Both the position numbers and the translations under genes were made by a program. A stretch of DNA of 64,000 nt from Fibrobacter sp. UWH4 (GTDB taxonomy: Bacteria > Fibrobacterota > Fibrobacteria > Fibrobacterales > Fibrobacteraceae), in contig NZ_FRAY01000006.1 of the NCBI RefSeq assembly GCF_900142475.1, positions 62,001 to 126,000 of the forward strand, read 5' to 3'. The notes beneath the pieces were generated by a model, which was not told the origin of the DNA, did no database searches, and worked only from the letters and a program-made list of their open reading frames with translations. Shown here piece by piece: positions 47,076 to 61,887 of this stretch (position 1 is its first letter; the number at the start of each line of letters is the position of its first letter).

Positions 47076-48689
47076 AAAACACCTCCGCTTGCGCGGAGAA
47101 AACCCACTACCCGGAAATGCTACCTTACCATCGGCGGAAACACCTCCGCTTGCGCGGAGAAAACACGCCGACGGCAACAAGGCGGAAAAGAACTTTAGAA
47201 ACACCTCCGCTTGCGCGGAGAAAACTCCGTTGCTATGCCGAAAGGTTCCGCATCGTCAGAAACACCTCCGCTTGCGCGGAGAAAACGCATGGCTGACTTG
47301 ACGGAAAAGATTCATTCAAGAAACACCTCCGCTTGCGCGGAGAAAACCTTTTGTCCTCTATCCCTTTAGTCGGTATTTTGGAAACACCTCCGCTTGCGCG
47401 GAGAAAACCAACCAAAAGGAGGTCGATCATGGCTTGCGGAAGAAACACCTCCGCTTGCGCGGAGAAAACAAAGGTAGGCCGCTTGCTGCCATAGGTCGCC
47501 CAGAAACACCTCCGCTTGCGCGGAGAAAACCTCTTGCCCTGCAAGAAGTGTACCCAAGCACCGGAAACACCTCCGCTTGCGCGGAGAAAACCGCACACGC
47601 AGCCCGTCAAGCCCGCATCCATTAGAAACATCTCCGCTTGCGCGGAGAAAACTGCCGCAAATTATTGAATCAAGGCATGATTATAGAAACACCTCCGCTT
47701 GCGCGGAGAAAACGCGGAACTGTCACCTTCCAATCGGGATAAGGGAGAAACACCTCCGCTTGCGCGGAGAAAACATCAAGGACGTATAACATTTTTTAAC
47801 GGGGTCAGAAACACCTCCGCTTGCGCGGAGAAAACTTGCCGAGGACGAGATTTGCGTAATCTTCGTAAGAAACACCTCCGCTTGCGCGGAGAAAACAACT
47901 TGGCTACATACCTGAAATCGCCTTTAGTGGAAACACCTCCGCTTGCGCGGAGAAAACGTTTTCCAGGAGAGCGTCCGCGAGCTTGCCGTAGAAACACCTC
48001 CGCTTGCGCGGAGAAAACTATCCTTGCCCGCTCCGCAGCGCATCGACCCCGGAAACACCTCCGCTTGCGCGGAGAAAACATCTTTTTGAGTCAATCATGG
48101 AAAATCCTTTATCAAACACCTCCGCTTGCGCGGAGAAAACATGCTTACGCCAACCAGCCACAATGTAACCGTAGAAACACCTCCGCTTGCGCGGAGAAAA
48201 CCCAACCAAACGCGAACGGTGTCCAAAGTAGGAAGAAACACCTCCGCTTGCGCGGAGAAAACACCGGGAAAATTTTGCCCACCCAAATGGCGCAGGAAAC
48301 ACCTCCGCTTGCGCGGAGAAAACTCGGTTCTTCCTTGGCCGGGATTCGTTCGGCAAGAAACACCTCCGCTTGCGCGGAGAAAACGCATCAAACGCTTGCA
48401 CGAAAGCAAAACGCAGGGAAACACCTCCGCTTGCGCGGAGAAAACTCGTCCCTCGACGACTTCATGGCTGCTGCTAGGGAAACACCTCCGCTTGCGCGGA
48501 GAAAACGGAGAACTGGTACAGAGGGTCATCGGCGTACTGGAAACACCTCCGCTTGCGCGGAGAAAACCAAACATAGATATGACACACGTCCACAGCGAGG
48601 GAAACACCTCCGCTTGCGCGGAGAAAACGAGTGTTCGACGCTGCCGCGAGCCTGCTCGGTAGAAACACCTCCGCTTGCGCGGAGAAAAC
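47076..48689 (-). CRISPR. CRISPR array, type I-E, 27 repeats and 26 spacers
   Basis: The repeat is 28 bases (plus strand begins GAAACACCTCCGCTTGCGCG, then GAGAAAAC), with a CTCCGCGCAAGCGGAG hairpin on the minus strand. Starts lie at 47076 + 61n for n = 0-26, so every spacer is exactly 33 bases. Three repeats carry variants: the first (A for G at base 1, 47076), the one at 47625 (T at base 7) and the one at 48113 (C at base 1). By analogy with E. coli the transcribed strand is minus, with the leader on the cas2 side; the degenerate 47076 repeat at the far end is consistent. Open frames that read RNTSACAEKT are artefacts. Confidence 0.97.
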
Positions 48690-49025: not shown

Positions 49026-49895
49026 TTACTTACCTAGCATTTCCTCAATATCTGGACCTATACGTTCTAACAATTTATAATCAAGAACCCGCTTCCGGAA
49101 TTCAGCTGATACCCGATGTTTGTTGTACTCTCCCGCCAAATCCAATGTCATCTTAAAAGCCAAATCTATGCACAATTCTTCCTTGTACAAATCAGCCATA
49201 TCATAGACAAAAGGTAACGGTGATCCCGAGTGAATAAAACCTATATGTGGAGAATAGCCCATTGAATAGATGCAAGAGCATAAAATTCCATATAATGCGG
49301 CATTGGATGCAGTCAGCACTTGGTTTGTGACATCGCTCAATTCCATCTTTCCAGGTGTAAAAGAGCGTCCTCGCCAACCAACACCATATTCATTCGCTTT
49401 TTTCTCATATAACGCACGAACACGATATCCTTCCATGCCCATCATTTCTTTTAAAGGCTTGCCTTTTAAATTTTCATCAGGGAAACGCCGTTCATACATC
49501 CGTCTTGCAACCGCAAGAGATTTTTCAGGATCACACGAAATCTGCATCTGACGCCGCAAATTCCGAGTATTTGCGGTAGGAGAATTGCCAACAGCATAAA
49601 ACAACAAAGAATCCTCACCAACCCAGCACACGCTACAATTTGCGGCAGCGAGGACCTTAATCGCTTCATGAGTTACACTTGTTCCAGGCCCCAAAAGCAA
49701 AGTCGTTATTGTAGCAATAGGAAGGCGAACAACTTCGCCTTCACTATCAATCCACTTAACACTGCTATCGTCAATTTCTAAACGACCTCGTTCAAGATAG
49801 AGAAATGGGTACCGATCTTTTATTTGTGGTAACGTGTCGTGCGTTACCTTGATAATCAATCGGCTACTTTTTTCTTTTATCTGATTAGCAGCCAT
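49026..49895 (-). CDS. cas1: CRISPR-associated integrase Cas1 (type I-E)
   Basis: The 289-aa protein has the metal-binding triad of Cas1: Glu in MGMEGYRVRALYEKKA, His in IGFIHSGSPLPF and Asp in FVYDMADLYKEELCIDLAF. It catalyses protospacer integration with Cas2. LLLGPGTSVTHEAIKVLAAA and GRSFTPGKMELSDVTNQVL also fit the I-E branch. It directly follows cas5 with no gap. Confidence 0.93.
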   Translation of the reverse strand: MAANQIKEKSSRLIIKVTHDTLPQIKDRYPFLYLERGRLEIDDSSVKWIDSEGEVVRLPIATITTLLLGPGTSVTHEAIKVLAAANCSVCWVGEDSLLFYAVGNSPTANTRNLRRQMQISCDPEKSLAVARRMYERRFPDENLKGKPLKEMMGMEGYRVRALYEKKANEYGVGWRGRSFTPGKMELSDVTNQVLTASNAALYGILCSCIYSMGYSPHIGFIHSGSPLPFVYDMADLYKEELCIDLAFKMTLDLAGEYNKHRVSAEFRKRVLDYKLLERIGPDIEEMLGK

Positions 49896-54495: not shown

Positions 54496-57102
54496 TTACT
54501 TTTCAATTTTATAACCAACACTCTTTGTATATAACATTTTTTTTGCGTTTTCGTCACCAAAAATTTCTAGTCTATTCCGGTTTAAGTCTCTAAACGAGCT
54601 GTCTTTGTCCACAATAACCGCTCTGAACATACATTTTTCATCGTCTTCTTGGTCTCCAAGATAAACATAAGCTCCAAAAACATCTATATGCCGATCTATC
54701 GGAGGAGCATCCTGTTCTGCAATAACAACACAATGTTCCACAATTTTTTTCGACAATTCTCTTTTTTGTCTTTCACTTGACGGATATTTAGGCAAAACAA
54801 CCGTCTCCGATTCATTCCAAAAATTTATTTCAACTCCGTATTCTCCAACTTCGAAAGATTCCAACAACAACACGGAAACCGTATCAACATCGGAATATCG
54901 TGTCTGTACAGCAGATTCTGGCAATGTTGAAATAGCTGAAGATAAGCCGACCCTAGCGAGTCCTTGCAAATGGGACTGTTTTCCCAACAAATCAGTTTTC
55001 ATTTTTGCTAGGATTCCATCTTCCTGCCGCTCTTGGTAAACGCTTTCCAACAGCCCACGAATATCATTCGGCAAATTAACGACATCTATATGTTTCAACA
55101 CATCAAGTGTTCGGCTCAGAACATAGGGGCTATACACCACCCCCGTTACTCCAAATACTTTATCGCTTTTTATAACATCTTCAACAACAGGCGAAAGGAC
55201 AAGTGTTTCACATTTTGCCGTTGACGGGCGAATCTTATCATTTTCGCGATGTCGCCATAAGCGCCCGATTCTTTGCAAAAGCATATCCATCGGGCAAATC
55301 CTGGTTATCAAATAATCCGCATCAATATCAATAGATTGTTCTAGGACTTGCGTTCCCACTAAAATTCGACCACAAGCATTTCGCTTAGAATAGCCATTTT
55401 TCCCGTACAGCGTGACCCATTTATTTTCTATTTCAGATCGTTGCTTTTTTATAAATCTGGAATGAATCAATCCACATTCTAAGCCCATTTCGGCAGATTT
55501 AGCAGCCAGTTTTTTGTAAACATTCTGAGCATCAGCAACAGTATTTTCTATCCAAAGAACTTGTTCCCCATTTTCAGCTTTTTCCAAAGCAATGTCAAAA
55601 GCCATTTTATCATCTTTACTTATTTTAATAGAGACATTCCGGTTAGATTCTCCCAAACTTGAAATTTCAGAAAAAGCCTTGTCCGTTTGGCTAGAAATTA
55701 AGGGATAACTATCGTTTAAGACCTGTTCAAACGGTAAATCCAAAATTTTCTTTTTCTGGGATGACGTCAATGTTGCACTTAAAATAATTACTGTGCATCC
55801 AATGTGCTTTAATTCATCAACAAGGGCATTCATTATCGTTCCAGTATAGGAATCGTAGCTATGCACCTCATCAAGAATTACGACTTTCCCTGCCAAACCA
55901 AATGCTCGCACCATGCTATGCTTGACATTCATAGCCGCCATAAGTGCTTGGTCAATAGTACCAACGGCAAACGGAGCCAGAATTCCTCGTTTTTTGGAAT
56001 CAAACCAAGACTTACCAACTTTGGCATCTTCACCCAAAGAATCCTCTTCAAGCCAAGCAGAACTATGCAGCAACTTTAAGCAATACGAGGATTCTTCGCC
56101 CACGATTTTACTAAGGAACGATTCCACTCGTTCATAAATTTTATTAGATGTCAATTGTGTCGGAAGGCCAAAGTAAATTCCAGAAGCAAGCCCTTTTTCC
56201 AGCATTTTATAGGCAGCATAAAGAGCCGCTTCTGTTTTTCCCAAACCCATCGGGGCTTCCAAAACATAAACACCAGGAAAAGAAACAGATTCGAACAGAT
56301 CCGACTGAATTTTTCTAGGAGTAAAGCCAAAAATATCTTTGAACTGAAGCCCTTGCTTTATAGAAAGCGGAATAAAACCAGCATTATGAACAGCCTTATG
56401 AGCAATCTTTTTCAAATCATCTTTACTATAAGAATGATTTTGCTGAATATTGCCAAAATAACCACCAGAAGCAATCCAGTCTGCAACAGTTATGAAACCA
56501 CCTATAACACAAGCCTGATTCCATTCACTTAAATTATTTGAATCAGAATAGGGGAAACTCCGTTCCAAGTTTTCAATAAGCTTATGCCGCAACGCGGTCC
56601 AGTTTTCGCCACCATAAATATCACGATTCTCCGCAATTGGACTAAAATTCGGCTTAAAGCCGTGATGCATTCCTTCAATGGTTGCAAGCATTTTTTGTTC
56701 TGGAAAGCTACTTTCAATAGATACTTGAGAAACTTTTCCGTGAAAACTCACATCTTTTCGTTTTGCCCTATTTTCGTTGGCATTCTGCAACTGAGGAAAA
56801 TCTTTAACACTCCCAAGCCACGATGTGTATATCATACGCTGGAAATCAGGACTTAACTTCCCTACATCGTGTATGGACGCAAAAAACGGAGCTGATTTCG
56901 TAAGAATTTGCTTCACATTATCTATTAAGGACTTGCACAATTCCTCTGCAACAAAACCAGTTATTATACAATGCTCAGCAACCGAAATACCAGGCTTTGT
57001 GTCGCCCGTTTTTTCGTCAACAACAAGTTTAGCCAGACATTTTTCCGGCGACAACGCCTCAATTTGACGTTCTTGAGTATTCTTTAAGCATTTTCCCAAC
57101 AT
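54496..57102 (-). CDS. cas3: CRISPR-associated helicase-nuclease Cas3
   Basis: The 868-aa protein has an HD nuclease part (SVAEHCIITGFVAEELC, FFASIHDVGKLSPDFQRMIY, with the HD pair) followed by a superfamily 2 helicase: Walker A VLEAPMGLGKTEAALYAA and DEVH box VVILDEVHSYDSYTG, plus LVGTQVLEQSIDIDADYLIT and MDMLLQRIGRLWRHREN. The HD domain cuts and the helicase unwinds DNA after Cascade recruitment. It is the first gene of the operon, with promoter-like AT-rich sequence between it and the divergent hip operon. Confidence 0.93.
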   Translation of the reverse strand: MLGKCLKNTQERQIEALSPEKCLAKLVVDEKTGDTKPGISVAEHCIITGFVAEELCKSLIDNVKQILTKSAPFFASIHDVGKLSPDFQRMIYTSWLGSVKDFPQLQNANENRAKRKDVSFHGKVSQVSIESSFPEQKMLATIEGMHHGFKPNFSPIAENRDIYGGENWTALRHKLIENLERSFPYSDSNNLSEWNQACVIGGFITVADWIASGGYFGNIQQNHSYSKDDLKKIAHKAVHNAGFIPLSIKQGLQFKDIFGFTPRKIQSDLFESVSFPGVYVLEAPMGLGKTEAALYAAYKMLEKGLASGIYFGLPTQLTSNKIYERVESFLSKIVGEESSYCLKLLHSSAWLEEDSLGEDAKVGKSWFDSKKRGILAPFAVGTIDQALMAAMNVKHSMVRAFGLAGKVVILDEVHSYDSYTGTIMNALVDELKHIGCTVIILSATLTSSQKKKILDLPFEQVLNDSYPLISSQTDKAFSEISSLGESNRNVSIKISKDDKMAFDIALEKAENGEQVLWIENTVADAQNVYKKLAAKSAEMGLECGLIHSRFIKKQRSEIENKWVTLYGKNGYSKRNACGRILVGTQVLEQSIDIDADYLITRICPMDMLLQRIGRLWRHRENDKIRPSTAKCETLVLSPVVEDVIKSDKVFGVTGVVYSPYVLSRTLDVLKHIDVVNLPNDIRGLLESVYQERQEDGILAKMKTDLLGKQSHLQGLARVGLSSAISTLPESAVQTRYSDVDTVSVLLLESFEVGEYGVEINFWNESETVVLPKYPSSERQKRELSKKIVEHCVVIAEQDAPPIDRHIDVFGAYVYLGDQEDDEKCMFRAVIVDKDSSFRDLNRNRLEIFGDENAKKMLYTKSVGYKIEK

Positions 57103-58801: not shown

Positions 58802-60046
58802 CTATTCCCTATGTTCGTATAGGTACAGGTTCGCCTCGGGTACTGCGAGGTCGGAACCCTTGATTTTCCATTCGTCGTCGGTGCCGGTGCGGTACTTCAC
58901 CACCACGCGGTAGCGGTTGTCGGTCTTTAAGACGGCCTCAGGAACGGTCCAGAAGTTTTCGGTGCCCACGACCATTTCTAGTTCGTAGAAGTCACTAGTG
59001 TCGACACCGTAGATGGCGATGGATTTTACCATGTCCTTCGGGTTACGCACCTGGATTATGCTCCAGAATTCGCTGGCACCTTCCTTGACCCAGATGGACG
59101 TTGAATCGCCCCACACGCCGTCTACGCCCTCGCAGCTCACGAATTCCCATTCGCCGTAGTAGCGGCCCACCTGATTTCCCATGATGTCAGCGGCAGGGGC
59201 GCCGCCCAAGTCCACGCCGCAATCAGCATCGGGACAGCGGTCGGTAATGCGCACGGTCACATGCTTCCAGCCGTAGAGTGTTTTCGCCTTCACGCGCACG
59301 CAGCCGCCACAGGCCGCGCCGCCATTCCACGGGCCCTTTTCATCGCCAGGGGACACATTCACATGGATCGCCGCGTAGTATTGTATGTTAGTTTGTCCGT
59401 AGTTGCAGGCGCCACCGAGGCTCGTTTCTTTTGCCGTGATACTCCCGTAGGTGGTCACGGAACCCTTGCCGCCGTTTTCGGTGAGTTCGGGGTCTGCCGC
59501 GGTGTAGCTATCGCAGGCGGTGCACTTGCCGTCGTCGCCATCGTTATCGTCGCTGCTGGATTCTGGTGCTGCGCTCGACGAAGATAGCGCCACATTCACT
59601 GAGGAACTTGTCCCTTCGGCAAGCTCAGGGACCTTGGTTATTTCGGAGGAGCTTGAACCTTCGGCAAGCTCAGGGGCCTTGGTTGTTTCAGAGGAGCTTG
59701 AACCTTCGGCAGGCTCAGGGGCCTTGGTTATTTCGGAGGAGCTTGAACCTTCGGCAAGCTCAGGGGCCTTGGTTGTTTCAGAGGAGCTTGAACCTTCGGC
59801 AGGCTCAGGGGCCTTGGTTATTTCGGAGGAGCTTGAACCTTCGGCAAGCTCAGGGGCCTTGGTTGTTTCAGAGGAGCTTGAACCTTCGGCAGGCTCAGGG
59901 GCCTTGGTTATTTCGGAGGAACTTGACAGAAGCGAACTTTCGCTTGAAAGTGTATCGGTGGCACTCGCCGACGAATCATCACCGCAAGCAACAAAGCCTG
60001 CACCCAGCAGGGCGCTGAAACAAAAAGCAAGGGCATGAAGTCTCAT
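58802..60046 (-). CDS. Expansin-like lipoprotein with repetitive serine-rich linker
   Basis: Start MRLHALAFCFSALLGAGFVA gives 414 aa with lipobox GFVAC. After it comes a Ser/Glu-rich linker with seven 15-residue units (TKAPEPAEGSSSSET type). The C-terminal 240 residues resemble expansins/EXLX: TYGSITAKETSLGGACNYGQ, NGGAACGGCVRVKAKTLYGW, VTVRITDRCPDADCGVDLGG and APAADIMG, then a second sheet domain. Expansins loosen plant cell walls and are common in cellulose-degrading bacteria. The cysteine pairs and the DRCPDADCGVDL motif support the double-psi barrel. Surface anchoring is expected. Confidence 0.8.
   Translation of the reverse strand: MRLHALAFCFSALLGAGFVACGDDSSASATDTLSSESSLLSSSSEITKAPEPAEGSSSSETTKAPELAEGSSSSEITKAPEPAEGSSSSETTKAPELAEGSSSSEITKAPEPAEGSSSSETTKAPELAEGSSSSEITKVPELAEGTSSSVNVALSSSSAAPESSSDDNDGDDGKCTACDSYTAADPELTENGGKGSVTTYGSITAKETSLGGACNYGQTNIQYYAAIHVNVSPGDEKGPWNGGAACGGCVRVKAKTLYGWKHVTVRITDRCPDADCGVDLGGAPAADIMGNQVGRYYGEWEFVSCEGVDGVWGDSTSIWVKEGASEFWSIIQVRNPKDMVKSIAIYGVDTSDFYELEMVVGTENFWTVPEAVLKTDNRYRVVVKYRTGTDDEWKIKGSDLAVPEANLYLYEHRE
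59603..59920 (-). repeat. Seven 45-bp tandem units inside the expansin-like gene
   Basis: Each unit contains CTTCGGCAAGCTCAGGG or CTTCGGCAGGCTCAGGG (plus strand) followed by GCCTTGGTT and a serine-coding segment. Odd and even units alternate (ITKAPEP versus TTKAPEL), giving a 90-bp higher-order repeat. The 17-base core is the dispersed genomic element seen near 27.1, 10.6 and 61.9 kb. Confidence 0.85.
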
Positions 60047-60083
60047 ACCCTTGAATATAATATATTCTTTTAATGAAAAAGGG

Positions 60084-60290
60084 TGATCCCGGCACAAGGC
60101 CGGGATGACATGTGAGTGGTTGGCCGGGATGACAAATGAGCGCCTTACCAGTCGTTGCGCTCGTTGAGCGCAAGACCTTGCGGGTATCAAAAGCCAGCCT
60201 TACCAGTCATTGCGCTTCGCGCAAGACTCGACGGCTCGGCCATAGAAAAATGCAAGCATTTTTCTGCGGCGCTCGCCTTACCAGTCTTTG
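60084..60290. repeat. Cluster of palindromic and GCCTTACCAGTC repeats
   Basis: GATCCCGGCACAAGGCCGGG, then ATGAC (60084-60112), is followed by a second GGCCGGGATGACAAATGAG. The motif GCCTTACCAGTC occurs three times (60142, 60197, 60275); the last copy is the stop region of the TPR gene. A perfect hairpin GAAAAATGC/GCATTTTTC (60245-60264) could terminate that gene. No coding sequence is supported here between 60047 and 60277. Confidence 0.65.
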
Positions 60291-61084
60291 GCTGGTCTTG
60301 CCTGGCCGCGGATGGGTTTCCAGGGTTTGCGTTCGCCGTTCTGTTCGTCGAAGTCTTTCAGGAGCTGCGCCGCTTCTTCGGGGCTCATCTCGCCCATCTG
60401 CACAGGCTGTTCCTGGGGTTCCTCGCCGCCGTTACTGTCGCTGGAATTTTCCTGAGGCTGTTCGGGTTGCTGTTCTGGTTGCGCACCGCCTTCGCTGTCG
60501 GAGCTCCCTGCATCCGAGCTGCTGGACTGTCCGCCACCATTCTGGTTCTGGTCATCGGAAGCACTCGAAGAACTCTCGGAACCGCTGGAATTGCCTTCGC
60601 CATTCTGATCCTGGTTCTGCTGGTCCTGATTCTGGTCCTGCTGATCCTTGTTTTGATCCTGGTTCTGGTCCTGATTATTATCCTGATTCTTGTCGTTCTT
60701 CTTGTTCTCGTTCTTCTGCTCGTCCTTGGCCTCGTGGATACGGTCAAGGAGCATTTGCAGTTTCTGGTCGTTCGGATAATATTGCAGGCCTTCGTTACAA
60801 GTAATTTCGGCAGAAGGCAGGCGGTTTTCGATGTACTGGAAGGCGGCGTCGCTGTAATAGGCACTTGCTGACTTCGGGGCGGCAAAGGCCGACACTGCAG
60901 CCAAAAGAATTACAAACGCAAATGCAAGAATATGAGGCCTGGACCCTATCGCTACGCTCCAGGGTGACAGGTGACTGGTTTCCGCAAACTTGCTTCCGCT
61001 TGAATCGGGACTAGACCCCGTCGCTACGCTCCAGGGTGACAAGCAACAAACCTGAGCTCCGAATTCTGAATTCTGAATTTTCAT
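60278..61084 (-). CDS. Secreted TPR-like protein with QNQD-rich segment and repeat-derived N-terminus
   Basis: ATG at 61084 overlaps the previous stop (TGATG). The first 50 residues (MKIQNSEFGAQVCCLSPWSV and LSPWSVAIGSRPH) are translated from dispersed repeats; the signal peptide-like helix RPHILAFAFVILLAAVSAFA lies behind them. No other start codon lies in frame ahead of the helix. A TPR-like pair (ASAYYSDAAFQYIENRLPSA) follows, then a long Gln/Asn/Asp segment (NQDQNQDQNKDQQDQNQDQQ) and a Ser-rich region. Proteins of this sort resemble BatC-type partners. It ends RPAKDW. Confidence 0.6.
   Translation of the reverse strand: MKIQNSEFGAQVCCLSPWSVATGSSPDSSGSKFAETSHLSPWSVAIGSRPHILAFAFVILLAAVSAFAAPKSASAYYSDAAFQYIENRLPSAEITCNEGLQYYPNDQKLQMLLDRIHEAKDEQKNENKKNDKNQDNNQDQNQDQNKDQQDQNQDQQNQDQNGEGNSSGSESSSSASDDQNQNGGGQSSSSDAGSSDSEGGAQPEQQPEQPQENSSDSNGGEEPQEQPVQMGEMSPEEAAQLLKDFDEQNGERKPWKPIRGQARPAKDW
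60949..61040. repeat. Two CTGGAGCGTAGCGACGGGGT-type elements in the TPR gene 5' end
   Basis: On the minus strand CACCCTGGAGCGTAGCGACG, then GGGTC, occurs twice (60953 and 61020 region), encoding LSPWSVAIGS and LSPWSVATGS. A degenerate relative lies at 10764-10804. Confidence 0.75.
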
Positions 61085-61827
61085 CAGATTACCTCCAGGT
61101 CGTTGTCGGTGTTGCTTGCGTCAATTTTCGCCTTGGGCTTCCTGCCCGCCTTGATTTCGATGACGTCGTCGATGCGCTGCACGTGTCCGCTCAGCTGGCC
61201 CGCGGTCTCGTCTTCGGCAATCAGGTTCTCGAGCATTTCCTTCGCTTCGGCATACTTGCCATCCTTGCAAAGCTGGAGTGCACGTGCCAGAACTTCCTTA
61301 GCCTTGTCGCTCAGGGGCGGCTGTTTCTGGTCGTTGTTCTGGTCCTGGTTTTGATCCTGATTCTGCTTTTGCTTGTCGAGTTCTTCTTTCAGCTTGCGCT
61401 GCACGATTTCCACGTTCTTCTTGGCGTTCTCGAAATTGTTGTCGAGGTCAATCGCCTTTTTCAGGTACGCCACCGATTCGCGCCACGCGGCAATGCGTTC
61501 GCTACCTTCGGCCGCCTTTTCGCCCATGCGGAAATGCGTATTCGCCAAATTGTAGGCAGCCTTCGCCGCCATATTCTTGTCGGGCATGCGCACGGCGCTT
61601 TCAAGCTCTTTCTTGGCCTCTTCGTAGTTGCCGAGCCTGTACTGGCAAGTTCCGATATTGTAGAACAGGAGCGGGTTCGCAGGTTCGGCCTCGCGGGCCT
61701 TCATGTACTTTTCGAGCGCTCCGGCATAGTCGCCGTTCTTGAACAGTTTATTGCCGTCGTTAATGGGGCGCGCCCACAGGCCTACCGACAGCAGGCATAC
61801 ACAAATCAACAAAAAACGCATCTTCAT
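61084..61827 (-). CDS. Secreted TPR protein (BatC-like)
   Basis: Start MKMRFLLICVCLLSVGLWAR (61827, or 61821) encodes a signal peptide. TPR repeats follow: NKLFKNGDYAGALEKYMKAR, LLFYNIGTCQYRLGNYEEAK and KAAYNLANTHFRMGEKAAEG, then YLKKAIDLDNNFENAKKNVE. A Gln/Asn/Asp stretch (KQNQDQNQDQNNDQKQPP) precedes a last helical domain. Bat-operon proteins of this sort support envelope integrity with DUF58 and VWA proteins, but none of those is adjacent here. The start is preceded by GGAAG. 247 aa. Confidence 0.7.
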   Translation of the reverse strand: MKMRFLLICVCLLSVGLWARPINDGNKLFKNGDYAGALEKYMKAREAEPANPLLFYNIGTCQYRLGNYEEAKKELESAVRMPDKNMAAKAAYNLANTHFRMGEKAAEGSERIAAWRESVAYLKKAIDLDNNFENAKKNVEIVQRKLKEELDKQKQNQDQNQDQNNDQKQPPLSDKAKEVLARALQLCKDGKYAEAKEMLENLIAEDETAGQLSGHVQRIDDVIEIKAGRKPKAKIDASNTDNDLEVI

Positions 61828-61849
61828 TCTTCCATGGATAGCTCGGCCA

Positions 61850-61887
61850 TTCGGCATGGTTCGGCAGGCTCACCAACCGAGCTCAGG
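61850..61887. repeat. Dispersed repeat TTCGGCATGGTTCGGCAGGC-type, copy 2
   Basis: Same 38 bases as 10540-10577, lying between the glycosyltransferase-like gene and the TPR gene. Confidence 0.8.

Follow-up and report, generated by a model that had tools for sequence, protein, structure and literature searches.

A gene for a putative exported protein in Fibrobacter sp. UWH4, located in the window (i.e., the whole 64,000-nucleotide stretch of contig NZ_FRAY01000006.1 that was analysed), carries its signal peptide behind a long run of repeat-encoded residues. Our explanation, to which we assign a probability of roughly 0.8, is that this gene is the downstream member of a coupled pair, and that repeats inserted in frame at a hotspot specific to it are tolerated and translated. 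At the level of sequence, comparison of Fibrobacter genomes demonstrated that the start and its Shine-Dalgarno sequence are conserved, that the inserts are open in frame and recurrent, that they originate from dispersed repeats, and that they are specific to this gene relative to its neighbours.

In the mechanism we propose, a BatC-like TPR gene and this ORF would form a translationally coupled pair, in which ribosomes that terminate at the TPR stop re-initiate, by means of a GGAGGT within the TPR gene, at the ATG that overlaps this stop and then read straight through the repeats. Short dispersed elements (heptamer arrays and units of about 30 nt) would have been inserted repeatedly after the start codon across the genus Fibrobacter, persisting only where the frame was kept and a hydrophobic core with AxA was left. 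The outcome would be an ordinary Sec signal whose n-region has anywhere between a few and about 95 residues, and which is predicted to support export and cleavage after the extension. Most probably, the extension itself is tolerated and cleaved off as part of the signal peptide, has no conserved function of its own and is presumably neutral.

Layout of the gene and its start

The features of the locus are collected in Table 1. The upstream gene resembled the BatC-type TPR gene of the Bat operon, its match to NF047507 (TPR_BatC_Lepto) having an E-value of 3.3e-19 and a score of 69 bits, under the curated cut-off of 175. The ORF itself had no Pfam match and no family match of weight. Its ATG at 61084 was the earliest start after the preceding stop, and the A of this codon doubled as the last base of the TGA of the TPR gene. 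From there, 48 residues encoded by the heptamer array and by a unit of about 34 bp that is present twice preceded the hydrophobic core and AxA motif, and the sequence downstream of the unit copies read RPHILAFAFVILLAAVSAFA|APKS. This order bore out the original prediction that the signal peptide is displaced behind about 50 repeat-encoded residues. The same prediction was right to place the repeats between the ATG at 61084 and the helix. It erred in regarding this as the only in-frame start, since it overlooked a TTG at residue 15, and in treating the two unit copies as one type: they were 88% alike over 34 nt and their ends differed (GCGTAGCGAC vs. GCGTAGCGAT). Its observation that no ATG, GTG or TTG stood in frame just before the helix was upheld, as none was present between residue 16 and the helix, and the next in-frame candidates (TTG at residue 61 and GTG at residue 64) were both within the helix. 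The spacer that separates the unit copies had no other match in the UWH4 genome at E ≤ 1e-3.

Table 1. Features of the repeat-extended gene and its upstream neighbour (positions are those of the window)
Feature	Position	Strand	Remarks
ORF, 268 aa	60278..61084	-	Repeat-derived N-terminus, signal peptide core and Q/N-rich mature protein; C-terminus PAKDW
GGAGGT, Shine-Dalgarno-like	61091..61096	-	Within the 3' part of the upstream TPR gene
TGATG	61082..61086	-	TPR stop and ORF ATG, one-base overlap
Heptamer array AATTCAG AATTCAG AATTC(GG) (AATTCAG/AATTCGG)	61061..61079	-	Codes for QNSEF
Dispersed repeat unit, copy 1, CLSPWSVATGS	61008..61041	-	
Spacer separating the unit copies	60970..61007	-	
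Dispersed repeat unit, copy 2, HLSPWSVAIGS	60936..60969	-	
Hydrophobic core and cleavage-type site ILAFAFVILLAAVSAFA, then APKS	60881..60931	-	Cleavage predicted
Upstream TPR gene, BatC-like, with a plain signal peptide of its own	61084..61857	-	NF047507 match, under cut-off

Conservation of the start and turnover of the inserts

The gene was present in 77 of the 80 Fibrobacter genomes searched, and in 40 of 40 with at least 90% completeness and at most 5% contamination, and the close matches among the named records listed were from Fibrobacter. All 77 versions began with an ATG that overlapped the stop of the TPR gene (TGATG or TAATG), had GGAGG just upstream of it, and kept a hydrophobic core and AxA|AP site ahead of the mature part, i.e., the hydrophobic core and AxA after the start that typify a cleaved Sec signal and from which export is predicted. 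The distance from the ATG to PKS varied between 21 and 117 residues (72 in UWH4), with at most 24 residues, a plain short signal, in 21 genomes and at least 25 residues in the other 56. These longer versions mostly contained recognisable dispersed repeats, although part of them (26–29 residues, e.g., G057) had none that could be recognised, and the longest, in G007, placed about 95 residues ahead of the core.

The existence of short homologues has a bearing on a comparison suggested by the original prediction, in which a homologue lacking the repeats might initiate next to the helix. Short signals were indeed found, in the 21 genomes above, yet they used the same stop-overlapping ATG and gave no case of initiation next to the helix. 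Therefore, the repeats are best seen as insertions after a conserved start, and not as evidence for a helix-side start.

The 56 longer versions fell into 36 sequence groups at 75% identity. The frame of the coupled ATG was open in 36 of the 36, compared with 3 for the +1 frame and 13 for the +2 frame, a statistic that overstates the case because sub-blocks were shared and some groups had spread between lineages, so that these are not 36 independent trials. As a free frame would give at most one third in frame by chance, it is very probable that the coupled ATG is used, and we infer that initiation takes place there. That inserts might be artefacts of assembly is spoken against by their recurrence in independent genomes and by near-complete assemblies, as several genomes of 9–20 contigs and 99–100% completeness carried them (e.g., G069, G070, G072 and G073), in a set whose assemblies are partly metagenomic.

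Turnover of the inserts has been considerable. A tree built from the TPR gene and the start of the mature part, which represents one locus and in which 27 of the 74 inner branches were weakly supported, required at least 42 switches from one insert group to another and at least 16 between insert and no insert. Independently of the tree, unrelated n-regions were found despite close TPR genes, e.g., in G019 and G056 (TPR genes 98.5% identical) and in G043 and G002 (97.2%). Conversely, identity along the locus often peaked at the insert, with n-regions more alike than the TPR genes in G072 and G014 (98.9% vs. 92.3%), G016 and G002 (98.9% vs. 92.0%) and G004 and G085 (96.6% vs. 86.7%). Such a peak would fit either local recombination or slower change. 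A bolder proposal is that the stretch from start to cleavage site is an actively diversified cassette: dispersed repeats would continually remake the n-region and in many cases the core, local recombination would pass cassettes from one species to another, and the process would be aimed at the site, beyond chance tolerance. We regard this as speculative and on balance unlikely; if true, there would be dozens of signal-peptide alleles for one exported protein within the genus.

Dispersed repeats and the specificity of the hotspot

Elsewhere in the UWH4 genome, the 153-nt insert had 20 further matches at E ≤ 1e-3, of which eight covered only the heptamer part, 11 the unit, and one ran from the heptamer part to the unit edge. 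The copies of the second unit are not due to chance, because an 18-mer taken from it occurred at 11 sites when one mismatch was allowed, as against none for a reversed control. Of nine other sites that were read, seven were intergenic. Among 41 genomes of the wider genus, 20 had the GTCATTGCGAG...GAAGCAATC unit and 26 had the AGACGAA array, with reversed controls giving none in either case. Both kinds of element also entered proteins: repeat units were in frame inside other UWH4 proteins (NUDIX-like and others), and in relatives the AGACGAA array was read in frame as part of UvrA-like, UvrB-like and helicase-like proteins (L345, L348, L364 and L358), all names being assigned by eye.

Exact counting of 16-mer repeats was too strict a method, since it returned only a CRISPR repeat and a lipoprotein linker. 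The latter belongs to a neighbouring lipoprotein-like ORF (58802–60190, reverse strand), whose linker at 59600–59940 consists of 45-bp units containing the dispersed TTCGGCAAGCTCAGG (EPAEGSSSSEITKAPELAEG), and is therefore a dispersed repeat expanded in tandem inside a protein. A CRISPR array occupies 47077–48685 with a spacing of 61 bp, and adjoining ORFs were judged by eye to be Cas1-like (49026–49895) and Cas3-like (54496–57102). At the other end of the extended gene, at 60136–60300, its last bases (CTTACCAGTC, forward strand) appear two more times a short way downstream, where they adjoin TTGCGC...GCGCAAGAC repeat units, and similar units were also present 3' of the gene in G010 and G011.

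The adjacent TPR gene offered the closest comparison. At least one peptide from a short list of repeat-family peptides was found in 33 of 77 n-regions of the extended gene vs. one of 76 signal peptides of the TPR gene, and the N-termini of 19 of 19 TPR genes read by eye were plain. It might be expected that every coupled signal-peptide gene collects repeats, because a start overlapping a stop leaves no intergenic space. Three other UWH4 genes that encode a signal peptide and whose start overlaps a stop had no repeats in the loci that were read (30, 13 and 12, respectively), and therefore overlap by itself does not account for the hotspot. When 464 kb of the UWH4 genome were scanned crudely for displaced signals, 117 signal-like ORFs were obtained, of which, by eye, only the extended gene and a PorV-like gene (G000:C1:382520) had repeats ahead of the core. 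The PorV-like gene (L112, G000:C1:382520-383671; NF033709, E 1.9e-8, under the cut-off) has MMMLRRKTKDERRESVILS... ahead of its core and a matching layout, in which a start overlapping a stop is followed by an AGACGAA array with other units and then the signal core, and which varies across the genus. Of 30 loci for this gene, 22 were readable, and among these the N-terminus was, by eye, clearly repeat-derived in L112, L134, L137 and L141 and possibly so in L117, L118, L123 and L139. As the PorV-like gene and other proteins also contain them, in-frame repeats are a general feature of the genus, within which the start of the extended gene is an extreme, gene-specific hotspot. The original prediction overlooked that this hotspot is recurrent and spans the genus, and so amounts to more than one odd gene.

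Several kinds of 7-bp tandem array are scattered through cyanobacterial genomes as heptanucleotide STRR repeats, but the Fibrobacter heptamers differ in sitting in a coding start region, joined to other units. The multi-copy, short, dispersed nature of the units is also like that of the REP elements associated with RAYT, yet the palindromic fold of REP was not seen in the UWH4 insert, where no inverted repeats were found. RAYT was discarded as the mover, as its Y1_Tnp domain (PF01797) was absent from the UWH4 genome, and was present in six of 21 genus genomes. In principle, the situation resembles that of the palindromic elements of Rickettsia (RPE), which are described in PMC10969869 as dispersed short repeats lying in frame within unrelated protein genes and translated, and the Fibrobacter repeats are likewise dispersed and in frame inside unrelated proteins. 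However, they are not RPE: they are units of about 30 nt or 7-nt arrays vs. palindromes of about 150 bp, the 34-nt units of UWH4 have no inverted repeats or stable fold, and insertion is concentrated in a single gene, after its start codon and ahead of its signal core, where dozens of alleles exist. A literature search, mostly outside subscription journals, found no description of a repeat-extended signal in Fibrobacter.

Competing explanations and what the series offers

The original prediction had raised an unusual start codon, such as ATT, next to the helix, which would leave the repeats as an untranslated leader. The gap in standard start codons before the UWH4 helix and the many homologues with ordinary-length signal peptides are in keeping with such an internal start. 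It would, however, leave the frame of the leader free, whereas all insert groups were open from the coupled ATG and few in the other frames. An internal ATG, GTG or TTG with an SD-like sequence, 16–34 residues before the anchor, was found in just two of the 36 groups, and short homologues share the coupled ATG. With the same ATG, TPR-stop overlap and GGAGG in 77 of 77, there is no need for a helix-side start, and this part of the prediction is not supported and is highly improbable. Heptamer arrays beside a start are also reminiscent of phase-variable genes, in which slippage of the array after the start would toggle expression. Period-7 runs of at least 18 nt followed the start in 15 of 77 genomes, and each added unit of 7 nt would shift the frame. 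Nevertheless, no allele among the 77 assemblies was out of frame (OFF), the arrays were short (about 3–4.5 units), most inserts were dispersed units rather than arrays, and 21 genomes had no insert, all of which makes contingency control the least probable of the explanations considered.

If the extension is translated, it could have a purpose, e.g., to delay export or to adjust the amount of product relative to the TPR protein, and here the positive net charge just before the core in 29 of the 36 groups, and inserts that are more alike than the flanking TPR gene (e.g., 98.1% vs. 91.4% in G012 and G083), were considered. Local similarity can also be explained by recombination. In addition, no conserved extended n-region motif was common to the 36 different groups, the extension was absent from 21 of 77, and the RNA of the insert folded no better than shuffles (z-scores of -0.26 to 0.48). 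Because of these three findings no function of the extension is indicated, and we consider one rather improbable. The extension might instead block export, leaving the protein in the cytoplasm of genomes with long inserts, and the original prediction that the protein could stay inside is compatible with the sequence; in G007, up to about 95 residues stand before the core. Retention is very unlikely, because all 77 versions retained the hydrophobic core and AxA|AP, which would degenerate without use. Natural signals of great length also exist: autotransporters, as described in PMC2805444, have a long stretch before the hydrophobic core of a Sec signal. This is a precedent for length and not for sequence, as the long autotransporter signals are described there as sharing a common domain organisation, whereas the Fibrobacter groups each differ and are repeat-derived.

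Read as tolerated insertions after a coupled start, these alleles would provide, for a single conserved protein, dozens of naturally occurring signal peptides whose n-regions span about 5–95 residues, and thus the tolerance of Sec for sequence before the hydrophobic core becomes directly testable. The hotspot at the coupled start would also reveal which start codon is used, and the occurrence of in-frame "selfish" protein repeats would be extended from Rickettsia to Fibrobacter.
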